From: Geothrix sp. 21YS21S-4
GTDB lineage: Bacteria; Acidobacteriota; Holophagae; Holophagales; Holophagaceae
Assembly: GCF_030845995.1 (NCBI RefSeq)
Contig: NZ_CP132719.1
Location: 682,001 to 746,000 of the forward strand
DNA length: 64,000 nt
Direction of reading: 5' to 3'
Made by a program: the position numbers and the translations under genes. The notes under the pieces are model-generated. The model saw only the letters and a list, made by a program, of their open reading frames with translations, made no database searches and was not told the origin of the DNA. Each line of letters begins with the position of its first letter. Position 1 is the stretch's first letter. Shown here in pieces: positions 36,437 to 42,020 of the stretch.

Positions 36437-36793
36437 GTGAAGATCCTCATCGTGGACGATTCCTCGACGATGCGGCGCATCATCATCAACACCCTCTCCC
36501 GCATCGGTTACACCGACGTGGTCGAGGGCGAGAACGGCAAGTCCGGGCTCGAGAAGCTCGGTCAGGGCGGCGTGGAGATGATCATCACCGACTGGAACAT
36601 GCCCGAGATGGACGGCCTGGAGTTCGTGAAGACCGTGCGCGGCCAGAACCCCTCGATCCCCATCCTGATGGTGACTACCAACGCCGCCAAGGAGGACATC
36701 GTGGAAGCCCTCCAGGCGGGCGTGAACAACTACGTGGTGAAGCCGTTCACCCCGGAGACCCTCAAGGAAAAGATCGAATCCCTCCTCGGGTAG
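36437..36793 (+). CDS. cheY: Chemotaxis response regulator CheY
   Basis: The 118-residue single receiver domain has the acidic pair DD at 7-8, phospho-acceptor D52 in TDWNMPEMDG (the DW pair typical of CheY), VTTNA containing the conserved Thr, and the switch Lys in VVKPFTP. Phospho-CheY binds FliM to change flagellar rotation. The GTG start has AGGAGG 7 bases upstream. It is followed after 12 bases by cheZ. Confidence 0.95.
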   Translation: MKILIVDDSSTMRRIIINTLSRIGYTDVVEGENGKSGLEKLGQGGVEMIITDWNMPEMDGLEFVKTVRGQNPSIPILMVTTNAAKEDIVEALQAGVNNYVVKPFTPETLKEKIESLLG

Positions 36794-36805: not shown

Positions 36806-37429
36806 ATGGATCAGTCCGAGATCGACGCCCTCCTCGCCGGAGGCGGCAAGTCACCCAAGAAGCCGAAGGCGACGGCGGCGCCCGCTGCCGCGGCGGCTCC
36901 GGCCCCCGCGCCTCCAGCTCCTGCGCCCGCACCGGCCTCCGCGCCCGCCCACGAGGAGCCCCACAAGGACGGCAGCGGCCACGTCATCTCCGAGCTGGAC
37001 ACCGTCACCGCGGTGACCGAGCGCGAGTCCAACAAGGTGATGGACCAGCTGGACCAGATCAGCCGCCTGGTCTCCCGCCAGCAGCAGCTGATCACGGACA
37101 TGATGCGCCACGAGGGGGCCCAGACCCCGGGCGTCCAGAAGGCCATCCACGAGGTGATGAGCGCGGGCAAGGAGATCCAGGACAAGGTCTTCGAGGCCAT
37201 GGACCTGATGCAGTTCCAGGACATCACGCGCCAGAAGCTGGAGCGGATCGTCCACCACCTCCGCCAGATCCACGACTACATCGTCGACCTGCTGGGCACG
37301 GGCCTGAAGAGCGACACCGAGCGTCCCTCCATCAGCCACACCATCGCCCAGACCGGCACCACCCCGGACGAGAACAAGGCCCACGCGGATTCCGTCATCG
37401 AGGCCTTCCGGCAGCAGAAGAAGGGGTAG
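36806..37429 (+). CDS. cheZ: CheZ-family CheY-P phosphatase with FliM-like N-terminal peptide
   Basis: The protein has 207 residues. The first ten residues (MDQSEIDALL) match the CheY-P-binding peptide of FliM. A Lys/Ala/Pro-rich linker (15-52) follows, then a helical domain. Residues 136-148 contain QFQDITRQKLERI, which has the Asp-x-Thr-x-Gln arrangement (D139, Q143) of the catalytic helix of E. coli CheZ (FQDLTGQ). The family role is to dephosphorylate CheY-P. The gene is tightly packed between cheY and the triple-CheW gene (3 bases). Confidence 0.85.
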   Translation: MDQSEIDALLAGGGKSPKKPKATAAPAAAAAPAPAPPAPAPAPASAPAHEEPHKDGSGHVISELDTVTAVTERESNKVMDQLDQISRLVSRQQQLITDMMRHEGAQTPGVQKAIHEVMSAGKEIQDKVFEAMDLMQFQDITRQKLERIVHHLRQIHDYIVDLLGTGLKSDTERPSISHTIAQTGTTPDENKAHADSVIEAFRQQKKG

Positions 37430-37432
37430 CAC

Positions 37433-38959
37433 ATGGCGGACACCACCCAGGCCCTTCTCGCCGGCGAACTGGTCCCGTCGGGCCAGCTGGTGACCTTCAC
37501 CCTGGACGGGGTGGAGTTCGGCCTGGACATCGACCGCGTCCAGGAGATCACCCACCGCTCCGACGTGACGCCCGTTCCCGGCAGCCCCAGCTTCATCCTG
37601 GGCGTGATCAACCTCCGCGGGCTGATCATCCCCGTGATCGACAGCCGCGTCCGCTTCCACCTGGCGCCCCAGGAGCCCACCTCCAAGACCCGGATCATCG
37701 TCCTGCGCCTGGCCAGCGGGCCCACCGGCCTCCAGGTGGATTCCGTGGCCGAAGTGGTGCGCCTGGAGGACCACGCCCTCCGCGAGACCCCGCCGCTCGT
37801 CGCCGGCATCCGCGCCGAGTACCTGGCCGGCATGGTCACGGTAGGGAATCGGCTGATCACCCTGATCCATCTCGAGAAGCTGCTGGACAGCAGCGAGCTG
37901 AGCCGCCGCGCCGAGCTGGAGGAGCTCAGCATGGAGGGCTCCTTCGGCGGGAACGAGGGCACCGAGGAGGAAATCGAGGCCGACGGGCGGCCCTTCGTCA
38001 CCTTCCGGCTGGGGACCGAATCCTTCGGGATCGCCCTCCAGCAGGTGGAAGAGATCGTCGAACTGCCCACCGTGACCAAGGTCCCCGACGCTCCGGACTA
38101 CGTTCTGGGGGTGATCTGCCTGCGGGACCAGGTCATGCCGCTCATCGACCTGTCCGAGATCCTGTCCATCGAGCAGGGCGAAGGCGGGCGCCGCCGCGAC
38201 ATGGTGGTGCTGCTGTCCTTCGGCTCCGCCCGGATCGGCGTGGTGGTGGACGAGATCCAGGAGATCCTGCGCGTGCAGGACGACCAGATGCTGCCGCCGC
38301 CCCAGACCCTGTCCGAGGCCGAGCGCGAGCACCTGGAGGGCATCCTCCTGCTTCCCGGCCGGATGGTGAGCCTGATCAACGTCCTCAAGATCATCACCGG
38401 CGACGACCAGGAGAAGATCGCCGCCATGGGCCAGGGCCTGGGGTTGGGCGACGCCCGCACCCAGGAGACGCACCCCAGCCTCGAACTGGTGGCCTTCCGG
38501 CTCGGCCCCGAGAGCTACGGCCTGCGCCTGCACGAGGTCCGCGAGATCATCATGGTGGGCCAGATCACGCCCGTTCCCCGCGCCCCGCACTTCGTGGACG
38601 GCGTCCTGAACCTCCGCGGCGAGGTCATGCCGGTGGTGGATCTCCGCACCCGGTTCGGGCTGGAGCGCGTCGAGGCCACGTCCATCTCCCGGATCCTGAT
38701 CACCAGCATCGGCGGCGTGTTCACCGGCCTGGTGGTGGACGCGGTGGATGAGGTCCGTCCCGTCGAACTCCACCGCTTCGGGCCTCCCCCCTCGGTCACC
38801 GCCGTGGGCGCCAACCGCTATATCGAGAAGGTGGCGCGGCTGGACAACGGAATGATCTTCCTGCTGGAGCTGCAGCAGCTCCTGACGGACGCCGAGACCG
38901 AACAGCTCCAGGGCCTCCAGGGGCGCCGGACCACGGCCAACAGGACGGGTGAGCCATGA
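37433..38959 (+). CDS. Triple CheW-domain coupling protein
   Basis: The 508-residue protein consists of three consecutive CheW domains: about 17-155 (VTFTLDGVEFGLDIDRVQEI, GVINLRGLIIPVIDSR), about 187-335 (FVTFRLGTESFGIALQQVEE, GVICLRDQVMPLIDL) and about 350-490 (VAFRLGPESYGLRLHEVREI, GVLNLRGEVMPVVDLRTRFG). There is no receiver domain, so it is not CheV. A triple CheW could bridge several CheA or receptor units in one array. It overlaps cheA by ATGA. Confidence 0.92.
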   Translation: MADTTQALLAGELVPSGQLVTFTLDGVEFGLDIDRVQEITHRSDVTPVPGSPSFILGVINLRGLIIPVIDSRVRFHLAPQEPTSKTRIIVLRLASGPTGLQVDSVAEVVRLEDHALRETPPLVAGIRAEYLAGMVTVGNRLITLIHLEKLLDSSELSRRAELEELSMEGSFGGNEGTEEEIEADGRPFVTFRLGTESFGIALQQVEEIVELPTVTKVPDAPDYVLGVICLRDQVMPLIDLSEILSIEQGEGGRRRDMVVLLSFGSARIGVVVDEIQEILRVQDDQMLPPPQTLSEAEREHLEGILLLPGRMVSLINVLKIITGDDQEKIAAMGQGLGLGDARTQETHPSLELVAFRLGPESYGLRLHEVREIIMVGQITPVPRAPHFVDGVLNLRGEVMPVVDLRTRFGLERVEATSISRILITSIGGVFTGLVVDAVDEVRPVELHRFGPPPSVTAVGANRYIEKVARLDNGMIFLLELQQLLTDAETEQLQGLQGRRTTANRTGEP

Positions 38960-41079
38960 GCGACTTCGCCCTCGACGATCCCAGCTTCTACGAGGATTTC
39001 CTCATCGAGGCGCAGGAGCACTTCGAGCAGATCGAGACCAACTTCCTGGCGCTGGAGGAATCCCCCGGCGACCTGGACCTGCTGAACGCCATCTTCCGCA
39101 GCATCCATACCATCAAGGGCGCCGCCGGGTTCCTGGGCCTCCAGAAGGTCCAGGCCCTCGCCCACGTCGGCGAGAGCGTGCTGGACGACCTCCGCAAGGC
39201 CCGGATGGAGCTCAACGAGCGGGTGATGGAGCTGCTGTTCGAGACCGTGGACATGCTCAAGGTCCTGGTGGACGACGTCCGCGTCCAGGTCCGGAAGCAG
39301 GGCGAGCCCGAGGATCCCGATCCCAGCGAGCTGATCCGCAGCCTGGAGGCGCTCCGCAAGGGCGGCGCCCAGGCCACGGAGGCCGCGCGCGCCGCGGCGC
39401 CCAAGGGCGAGCTACACCTCCCCTCCGCCCTCGACGGCCTCGACCCCGCGGGGAAGAAAGCCGCGGAGGCAGCGCTGGCCGAGCACAAGTCCGTCGTGGG
39501 CATCCGCGCCGAACTGGACGGCGCCATCTTCGGGACCGCCTTCAATCCCTTCTCCCTGTTCCAGATGGTGGAGCTGGTGGGACGGCTGCTCTACCGCCAA
39601 ATGGTTCCCCGCCAGCCGCTGGTGGACCTGGACACCTTCGAACCCCGGAGCTTCCATCTGGACCTGGTGCTGGTCATCGAAGCCGCCGAGCCCATCGAGG
39701 AGGTCCGCCGGATCTTCGGCGCGGTGACGAACGCCACCATCGGCCTGTTCCCCCTGGGCCTCGCCGAAGCCGAAGCGCCCGCCGAGGCGGAGGCCGCGGC
39801 CGGTTCTGACGGCGCGGCCGCCCCGGAGGACCGCCGGAAGACGGGCCGTCGGGCCGCCGACGACAAGAGCGGCGCGGACACCATCCGCGTCAGCCAGGCC
39901 AAGCTCGAGCAGTTCATGAACATCGTGGCGGAGCTGATCATCAGCAAGACCATGATCAGCCACCTGGTGGAGCGCCTGACCCCCCTGGTGAACGGCCATC
40001 CAGCCGCCGGCGTGGCCAAGGAACTGGCCCACGCCTCCGTCTACCTGGACCACGTCAGCAAGGAGATCCAGGCTTCCGTCCTGGGCATCCGCATGGTGCC
40101 GGTGAAGACCGTGTTCTCGAAGTTCCCGCGGATGCTGCGCGACCTCGCCAAGGCCAGCGGGAAGAAGATCGACCTCCAGATGATCGGGGAGGACACCGAG
40201 ATCGACAAGAGCATCATCGAGGAGCTGGGCGACCCGATGATCCACCTCATCCGCAACAGCGCGGACCACGGGATCGAGATGCCCGAGGTGCGCGTGAAGT
40301 CGGGCAAGCCCGAGGTGGGCACCGTCGTCCTGCGCGCCCGCCACGAGGGCGACAGCGTGATCGTGGAGATCGAGGACGACGGCAAGGGCATCGATCCCGC
40401 CGTCATCCGCGCCAAGGCCGTCGAAAAGGGGCTGATGTCCCCCGAGCGGGCCGACGCCATGGCCGACGAGGAGGTGATCGAGCTGATCTTCGCGCCGGGC
40501 TTCAGCACCGCCGCCAAGGTCACGGACATCTCCGGCCGCGGCGTGGGCATGGACGTGGTCCGCTCCAACGTGCGCAAGCTGAACGGTCGCGTGGGCGTGC
40601 GCTCCACCGTGGGCAAGGGCTCGATCTTCACCATCAAGCTGCCCCTCACCCTGGCGATCATCGACGCCCTGCTGGTGAAGAGCGGCGGCCAGGTCTTCGC
40701 CATCCCGGGCACGGCGGTGGAAGAGACCCTGATCGTCCCGCAGGAGACCGTGTCCCACCTCACCCGGCGCCAGGCCATCAACCTGCGCGGCGAAGTCCTG
40801 GGCGTCTCGCGCCTGCGCCACCTGCTGCGCTCCGCCACCGCGCCCGAGGGCGCCGAGGAAGACGGCCTGTCCGTGGTGGTGATCGCCTCCGGCGGACGCC
40901 GGATGGGGATCATCGTGGACAGCTTCGTCCGCCGGCAGGAAGTGGTCATCAAGCCCCTGGCGCCCTACCTGGCGAGCCTGCCCGGGATCAGCGGCGCCTC
41001 CATCATGGGCGACGGCGGCGTGGTGCTGATCCTCGATCCCGCCGAACTCCTGCAGCTCGCCGTCCAGGAGGCCGTGTGA
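38956..41079 (+). CDS. cheA: Chemotaxis histidine kinase CheA
   Basis: The protein has 707 residues. The P1 HPt domain has phospho-acceptor H51 in SIHTIKGAAGF. An unusual P2-region domain (about 145-265, VVGIRAELDGAIFGTAF...) replaces a standard CheY-binding P2. The P3 dimerisation helix (VSQAKLEQFMNIVAELI), P4 ATPase (LIRNSADHGIEMPEVR, DDGKGIDP, GRGVGMDVVRSNV) and P5 CheW-like domain are present. It overlaps the genes on both sides by 4 bases, so stoichiometry with the two CheW-type proteins is translationally linked. The P2 replacement resembles segments predicted to interact with response regulators, but I cannot name it. Confidence 0.95.
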   Translation: MSDFALDDPSFYEDFLIEAQEHFEQIETNFLALEESPGDLDLLNAIFRSIHTIKGAAGFLGLQKVQALAHVGESVLDDLRKARMELNERVMELLFETVDMLKVLVDDVRVQVRKQGEPEDPDPSELIRSLEALRKGGAQATEAARAAAPKGELHLPSALDGLDPAGKKAAEAALAEHKSVVGIRAELDGAIFGTAFNPFSLFQMVELVGRLLYRQMVPRQPLVDLDTFEPRSFHLDLVLVIEAAEPIEEVRRIFGAVTNATIGLFPLGLAEAEAPAEAEAAAGSDGAAAPEDRRKTGRRAADDKSGADTIRVSQAKLEQFMNIVAELIISKTMISHLVERLTPLVNGHPAAGVAKELAHASVYLDHVSKEIQASVLGIRMVPVKTVFSKFPRMLRDLAKASGKKIDLQMIGEDTEIDKSIIEELGDPMIHLIRNSADHGIEMPEVRVKSGKPEVGTVVLRARHEGDSVIVEIEDDGKGIDPAVIRAKAVEKGLMSPERADAMADEEVIELIFAPGFSTAAKVTDISGRGVGMDVVRSNVRKLNGRVGVRSTVGKGSIFTIKLPLTLAIIDALLVKSGGQVFAIPGTAVEETLIVPQETVSHLTRRQAINLRGEVLGVSRLRHLLRSATAPEGAEEDGLSVVVIASGGRRMGIIVDSFVRRQEVVIKPLAPYLASLPGISGASIMGDGGVVLILDPAELLQLAVQEAV

Positions 41080-42020
41080 CCCTGGGCGGTTCTCCGGCGC
41101 CCGTGGGGGCGTCCCGGGCTGAGGGCCGGGCGGATGCTCGGGAGGCGGCGCAGCAGCGCTTCCTGACCTTCCACCTGGACGGGCGGACCTACGGCCTGCC
41201 CCTGAATCGCGTGGCCGAGATCAGCCCCTTCCGCGAGCTGAACAAGCTGCCCCACATGCCCAAGTCCGTGGAGGGGATCCTGGATCTGCGGGGGCGCGTG
41301 ATCCCCGTGGTCAACCTGCGCATTCGCATGTCCCTTCCGCCCCTGGACGCTTCCAAGGTCGGGACGATCCTCGTCCTGGACCTGGAGGGCCAGCCCACGG
41401 GCCTGCTGGTGGATGGCGTGGAAGGCGTCCTCAGCGTGGGTGAAGGGGAGCTGGTTCCCGCCAGCCCGCTGCTGGCCGGCCTCGACGGCGCCTGGGCGGA
41501 GGGCTTCATCGTCCAGGGCGAGCGGGTGGTCACCCTCCTCGACGCCCTGCTGATCACCGCCCAGGGAGCGGGCCGGGCCCACACGCGCCACGCCGTGGCG
41601 GAGCGGGGGCTGGAGGAGCGCCTGGACGAGGGCCTCCGGCGGCTCATCGCCATGGCTCCCACCAAGGAGCAGGGGGGGCAGCGGGTCATGCCCCAGATCG
41701 AATCCTCCATCTCCTACACCGAGCAGGAAATGGCGAAGGTCCTCGACCGCGTGGAGGCCATGCTGGGCGGCGCCGATCGCACCTTCCGCGGCCTGGCCTA
41801 CCTCAAGCAGGAGGCCGGCCTGGGCAAACTGAAGGGCCACGAGCGCAGCATCGCCGAGCTGGAGCGCACCAACCAGGAACTCCAGGACACCGTCTTCGCG
41901 CTGATCCAGCAGGTCCAGTACCAGGACATCGCCCGCCAGAAGCTGGAGCGCGTCATGGCGCACCTCAAGGGCATGCAGGTGGCGATCTCGGGCAAGTTCA
42001 GGGCCACGAAGGCGGAATAG
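41076..42020 (+). CDS. CheW domain fused to a CheZ-like helical tail
   Basis: The 314-residue protein starts at a GTG overlapping the cheA stop. Residues about 27-165 form a CheW domain ([35 protein letters not shown]). After a linker, residues about 210-310 are helical, and 280-292 read [13 protein letters not shown]. This nearly repeats the catalytic helix of the CheZ encoded at 36806-37429 (QFQDITRQKLER), keeping the Asp and Gln (D284, Q288) but with Ala for Thr. I infer a CheW carrying its own CheY-P phosphatase-like helix. Activity is not proven. Confidence 0.85.

Follow-up and report, generated by a model that had tools for sequence, protein, structure and literature searches.

Does the phosphatase encoded at this locus carry, at its N-terminus, the peptide by which the flagellar switch protein FliM binds CheY-P, and if so, has this peptide replaced the C-terminal tether known from E. 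coli CheZ? The preliminary description of the window (the whole 64,000-nucleotide stretch of Geothrix sp. 21YS21S-4 that was analyzed, to which all coordinates refer) had reported a FliM-like peptide, a linker and a CheZ-type catalytic helix in a single protein, a combination that our analysis bears out. The protein, here called P0001, has 207 residues, is encoded on the plus strand (36806..37429) and starts with MDQSEIDALLAGG according to the ORF translation. It is probably a two-ended CheZ, with a FliM-like end that would serve as an auxiliary docking site, possibly in competition with the motor for CheY-P.

The gene is part of a tight run on the plus strand, which codes for a PilZ-domain protein, CheY, P0001, a triple CheW protein, CheA, and a CheW protein with an extra C-terminal helix. 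CheY (36437..36793, plus strand) is the presumed substrate of P0001; it matches Response_reg with an E-value of 9.2e-32 and NCBIfam CheY with 1.3e-38, the latter match being below the cut-off of that model. The triple CheW protein (37433..38959, plus strand) has three CheW stretches, and CheA (38956..41079, plus strand) has Hpt, dimerisation, HATPase and CheW domains. The host genome is complete (3.08 Mb) and contains FliM and two CheA proteins. The last protein of the run, downstream of CheA (41076..42020, plus strand; CheW E-value 1.8e-29), carries a CheZ-like catalytic helix (QYQDIARQK) at its C-terminus, with a weak NCBIfam CheZ match at residues 262-301 (E-value 0.02). In its QYQDIARQ motif, the D/Q spacing of CheZ is kept, and the protein is matched by P0001 in most genomes of the family (Holophagaceae). 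This fusion could be a way of placing phosphatase activity in the receptor array.

P0001 is a CheZ, with a hairpin shorter than that of E. coli. Its direct matches to CheZ models are below threshold: NCBIfam CheZ (NF041271) matches with an E-value of 2.7e-13 and 50 bits (cut-off 350), and Pfam CheZ with 20.3 bits (cut-off 30.7). CheZ from Campylobacter jejuni likewise stays under the NCBIfam cut-off (233.9 of 350). The assignment is based on a PDB search with a profile built from 30 relatives, in which the sole match with an E-value up to 1 was E. coli CheZ (1kmi_Z, 0.0014), together with the predicted hairpin and helices. In the profile alignment to 1kmi, D139 (37220..37222, plus strand) and Q143 (37232..37234, plus strand) of P0001 are aligned with the catalytic residues D143 and Q147 of E. 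coli CheZ; in the sequence, the two residues are positioned as originally claimed. Both are invariant in alignments A1, A5 and A6, and they belong to the motif QFQDITRQ of a long helix, where Q143 follows D139 at a distance of four residues. The catalytic helix has a pN/pS ratio of 0.064 (53 sequences). AlphaFold2 predicts a short helix (residues 3-11), disorder (12-55), a confident hairpin formed by helices 56-99 and 108-163 (36971..37294, plus strand), and a C-terminal helix (191-205). The hairpin is the catalytic core and aligns with that of E. coli CheZ; the block means of pLDDT are 81-94 for residues 61-160. Structure comparison of the model returned many unrelated helical hairpins with Z-scores of 8 to 10 and no row for 1KMI, and is uninformative for such folds. 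Neither Pfam nor NCBIfam gave a match in P0001 to a CheC-like phosphatase or to a FliN-like C-terminal domain. E. coli CheZ (1KMI) and P0001 thus have in common the helical hairpin, the Asp/Gln pair and a C-terminal helix, which binds CheY in E. coli, but the E. coli protein has the longer hairpin and is devoid of the N-terminal peptide.

This peptide, MDQSEIDALL (residues 1-10; 36806..36835, plus strand), resembles the CheY-P site of FliM, which is given as LSQxEIDALL in passages of PMC6700473, while passages of PMC9126983 give EIDALL for both FliM and FliY. Compared with LSQxEIDALL, the P0001 peptide agrees from Q onward and has M and D in place of the leading L and S. The suggested comparison with FliM from the same genome was made: host FliM starts with MAKILSQEEVDALLKSH, which contains SQEEVDALL and shares its pattern with the start of P0001. 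The same pattern was found in 30/30 FliM loci that were read (from the 55 genomes of the family that have FliM), and E. coli FliM starts with MGDSILSQAEIDALLNG, which contains SQAEIDALL. Both the FliM peptide and that of P0001 thus show Q, E, I/V, D, A, L and L at the extreme N-terminus, and in both a flexible linker comes next. The P0001 peptide differs in lacking the leading L and in being borne by a phosphatase rather than by the switch. In E. coli, FliM contacts CheY through D3, S4, L6, Q8, I11, D12, L14 and D16 (PMC3774744, from the passages available). FliM Q8, I11, D12 and L14 fall on Q3, I6, D7 and L9 of P0001, which are kept in 52, 52, 53 and 52 of the 53 family sequences, respectively. 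FliM L6 falls at M1, roughly where P0001 begins, and like D3, S4 and D16 it has no clear counterpart in P0001. Confidence in the predicted N-terminal helix is low (pLDDT about 56).

The resemblance could be due to chance, or the start codon could be wrongly assigned. A degenerate DNA pattern for E[IV]D[AED]LL has three matches in the whole genome (P0001, FliM, and the strand opposite a groES-like ORF), but the reversed control also has three, so that this count alone is not above chance. Position and conservation are. A start of the MDQSEIDALL type is found in 53 of the 54 family loci, which, together with a GGAGG stretch just upstream, supports the start codon of P0001. The sole exception (L033) is on a contig where a deletion has taken away the last part of cheY as well as the first part of cheZ, and it is excluded from all counts with n = 53. 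The gap across the cheY/cheZ junction at that locus may be an assembly error or a real deletion. Over codons 2-10 of the 53 sequences, pN is 0.048 and pS is 0.591 (ratio 0.081); thus, it is the protein sequence that selection keeps. The peptide also occurs in a second phylum (see below). Chance or a wrong start is already refuted by the conservation and the synonymous change, and we assign this explanation next to no probability. The earlier claim of a FliM-like peptide at the extreme N-terminus is thereby confirmed.

The peptide is followed by a disordered Pro/Ala linker (residues 11-55; 36836..36970, plus strand), which is hypervariable in length and sequence. Its presence had been described correctly, but it has about 45 residues (12-55 are predicted to be disordered, with pLDDT <50) rather than the 40 given at the time. 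Linker lengths range from 22 to 73 in 53/54 family loci, the pattern having failed to parse the remaining one. Column identity falls from 0.925 in residues 1-10 to 0.443 in the linker (11-58).

At the other end, P0001 has a predicted helix of the docking type (residues 191-205; 37376..37420, plus strand) with the sequence HADSVIEAF. The corresponding C-motif (DSVIEAF in P0001, DDLLDSL in E. coli) is present in 53/53 intact family sequences, in 30/31 from Campylobacterota and in 6/7 from Pseudomonadota. The N-motif is present in 53/53 intact family sequences and in 31/31 from Campylobacterota. It is absent from all seven CheZ proteins of Pseudomonadota (E. coli, Cupriavidus, Halomonas, Pseudomonas, Photobacterium, Pantoea, Proteus), a thin sample in which six proteins come from plasmid-collection records. 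With shuffled ends, the match rate for the N- or C-motif is about 0.7% or lower. Both patterns were composed after the sequences had been inspected; a narrower C-motif pattern matched 0/53 Holophagaceae and was broadened once the aligned C-termini had been viewed, so that the shuffle control tests composition only. As judged from their sequences, both ends of P0001 carry docking-type helices.

The preliminary description had suggested that the tether may have been re-created at the opposite end. In its full form, this means that the N-terminal peptide is the sole CheY-P tether and that the C-terminal end has lost this role. The C-terminus of Holophagaceae does depart from that of E. coli (DSVIEAF versus DDLLDSL), and column identity is higher in the N-terminal peptide (0.925) than in the C-motif (0.817). 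The C-motif is nevertheless retained in every intact family sequence and in two of three paralogs, a C-terminal helix is predicted, and H. pylori needs the C-terminus of its CheZ, as stated in passages of PMC11237671. The retained C-motif indicates that a tether was added, not moved. A move to the N-terminus is ruled out as the main reading by the conserved C-motif, and we consider a complete loss of the C-terminal role improbable.

CheZ relatives in the host genome that lack the peptide had been named, together with a lack of affinity for CheY-P, as an observation that would speak against its role. Such relatives exist: of three CheZ-like proteins, none has the N-motif, and two have the C-motif. 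These are, however, paralogs, whereas the orthologs carry the peptide, so that the role is not refuted. One CheZ-like protein (L001, 1159-2085; G000:C1, about 1388000) has a HAMP domain in front and the C-motif DDIIAQF, and is devoid of the N-terminal peptide. A further one (L062, 431-1291; G000:C1, about 2647500) has QYQDVVRQ, an NCBIfam CheZ match with an E-value of 8.1e-8, and the C-motif DSVVAEF. The host also codes for a FliY-like protein adjoining FliM (L004, 2371-3294), which has a CheC-type motif (DALAETFNQVMG) and lacks a CheY-docking peptide of the kind found in Bacillus subtilis FliY.

The phyla surveyed for the peptide were Acidobacteriota and Campylobacterota, in addition to the seven proteins from Pseudomonadota. 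The family profile was run against 396 Acidobacteriota genomes and matched 28, including 26 of Holophagaceae. In another acidobacterial family, 2/34 genomes match. One of them (G332) has the N-terminus MDQSEIDALLSGG and the C-terminal sequence NVDDIIAQF. The other (G738, L216) starts with MDQKEIDSLF and has a long Pro/Gln linker and three C-terminal docking-like repeats (DVDDIV, DVDDII, DIDNLI). In Campylobacterota, 244/298 genomes match the CheZ profile. The N-motif was found in all of the best 30 loci from these 244 matching genomes. The strict N-motif was also found in 19 of 20 further loci, which are lower among the matches listed or match from a later profile position; in the remaining one, N replaces D. 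The peptide is thus present in 49/50 sampled Campylobacterota, the sample being 50 of the 244 matching genomes, taken from the matches listed. That it is peculiar to the host genome or its family is ruled out by Campylobacterota and by the two other acidobacterial genomes. The N-terminal site was either gained by a CheZ that retained the C-terminal one, or it was lost in Pseudomonadota. Many bacteria have the two-ended arrangement, some of them with a CheZ that has already been studied, and its recurrence in Campylobacter-type bacteria makes it look like a conserved component of the chemotaxis off-switch.

The CheZ of C. jejuni and, probably, that of Helicobacter pylori ("remote CheZ orthologue", NF041271) share the layout of P0001: a FliM-like N-terminal peptide, a linker, a DxxxQ helix and a C-terminal motif. 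The C. jejuni protein starts with MTQEELDALMNGD, its peptide being MTQEELDALM, and ends with DIEALIASL. In comparison to P0001, proteins of this type have a longer acidic linker and a longer hairpin region (26% identity). While P0001 is encoded in the cheA operon, C. jejuni cheZ is located between glnA and a peptidase U32 gene. Judged from Campylobacterota genomes that match in size and active-site position, H. pylori CheZ probably begins with the same peptide. Its N-terminal region is called of unknown function in the passages available from PMC11237671. According to the same passages, deletion of residues 1-39 left both phosphatase function (reference 63 therein) and biofilm formation unaffected, while deletion of C-terminal regions did have an effect (12 residues for the C-terminal deletion in the strain table). 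Should the H. pylori protein have the same start as its relatives, the peptide would be among the deleted residues 1-39. Since these residues are dispensable, an N-terminal tether would at least not be essential in that species, and no other finding speaks as strongly against an essential one. The literature searched, which consisted of passages from work other than the primary H. pylori CheZ studies, holds no description of a FliM-like peptide on CheZ. Its occurrence across Campylobacterota and Holophagaceae suggests a specific and testable job for the N-terminal region of H. pylori CheZ. A parallel on a different fold is B. subtilis FliY, which also has an N-terminal peptide of the EIDALL type on a CheY-P phosphatase (PMC9126983, in part). 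FliY, however, belongs to the CheC-type phosphatases, has a FliN domain and is part of the switch, whereas P0001 is an unrelated helical phosphatase.

A link to flagella is seen in the distribution of the genes. Among 77 genomes of the family, 51 have full-length CheZ and FliM, 4 have only FliM, 2 have only CheZ, and 20 have neither (Fisher p 1.4e-12, relatedness being ignored). The genomes with only FliM (G010, G017, G026, G074) or only CheZ (G036, G071) are draft assemblies in 6/6 cases. Eight nearly complete genomes of the same genus (G004-G008, G012, G013, G049) are devoid of both FliM and a P0001-type CheZ, so that flagellar loss within the genus is likely.

The strongest rival explanation concerns the binding partner. 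The FliM-like peptide might dock a receiver-type domain other than that of flagellar CheY-P, belonging to another CheY-like protein or to a localisation partner such as ChePep in Campylobacterota. Its role would then be to place CheZ at the pole or the array rather than to capture substrate. There is a precedent in Azorhizobium, where the N-terminal helical region of CheZ is sufficient for polar localization (PMC7750401, according to passages of that paper). Against this, the conserved residues of the peptide are those that contact CheY in FliM. Moreover, the CheY of the operon adjoins CheZ and keeps most contact residues: K92, I95, Y106, V108 and K119 are retained, while A99 is replaced by L and K91 by A. 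A role in placement is considered unlikely. An AlphaFold2 model of a CheY-CheZ read-through has a pTM of 0.39 and is thus uninformative on docking.

We return to the preferred reading, the two-ended CheZ. P0001 would be the enzyme that dephosphorylates CheY-P in flagellar chemotaxis, and the flagellar output is itself presumed. The hairpin would place D139 and Q143 in the CheY-P active site and thereby accelerate hydrolysis. Substrate would be delivered by two short amphipathic helices on flexible linkers, an N-terminal one of the FliM type and a C-terminal one of the CheZ type. Both are expected to dock in the alpha4-beta5-alpha5 groove of activated CheY, the same groove as used by FliM. Judging from H. 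pylori and E. coli, the C-terminal helix would be the main tether. The N-terminal peptide would be an auxiliary site, allowing more CheY-P to be captured in direct competition with the FliM ring, so that the phosphatase would in part be a decoy motor. E. coli CheZ is a dimer. If P0001 is one as well, there would be four docking helices per two active sites, and the dimer could hold several CheY-P molecules. If the peptide binds CheY-P, one and the same peptide would be used by the phosphatase and by the motor in competing for a single groove; such competition, if true, would alter the modelling of signal termination and motor bias outside E. coli.

It is tempting to speculate further that there is a multivalent class of CheZ in at least two phyla, which combines the motor docking peptide with the CheZ docking helix at the opposite end. 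Some of its lineages would have multiplied the motif, as in one acidobacterial CheZ with three C-terminal copies and in CheZ of the Arcobacteraceae type, which has extra copies in the linker. Proteins of this class would be decoy switches that capture CheY-P against FliM. We regard this extension as tentative and rather doubtful.

Two observations on related proteins may be added. Six long CheZ proteins of the Arcobacteraceae type (L179, L180, L182, L183, L190, L240) have extra motifs similar to DIDELL or DLDDIL in the N-terminal linker; these exceed the shuffled expectation in the five that were tested (L179, L180, L182, L183, L190). In another acidobacterial family, a chemoreceptor-like protein (L173, 1294-2466) ends in a CheZ-like helix (QFQDITRQKIEHV).
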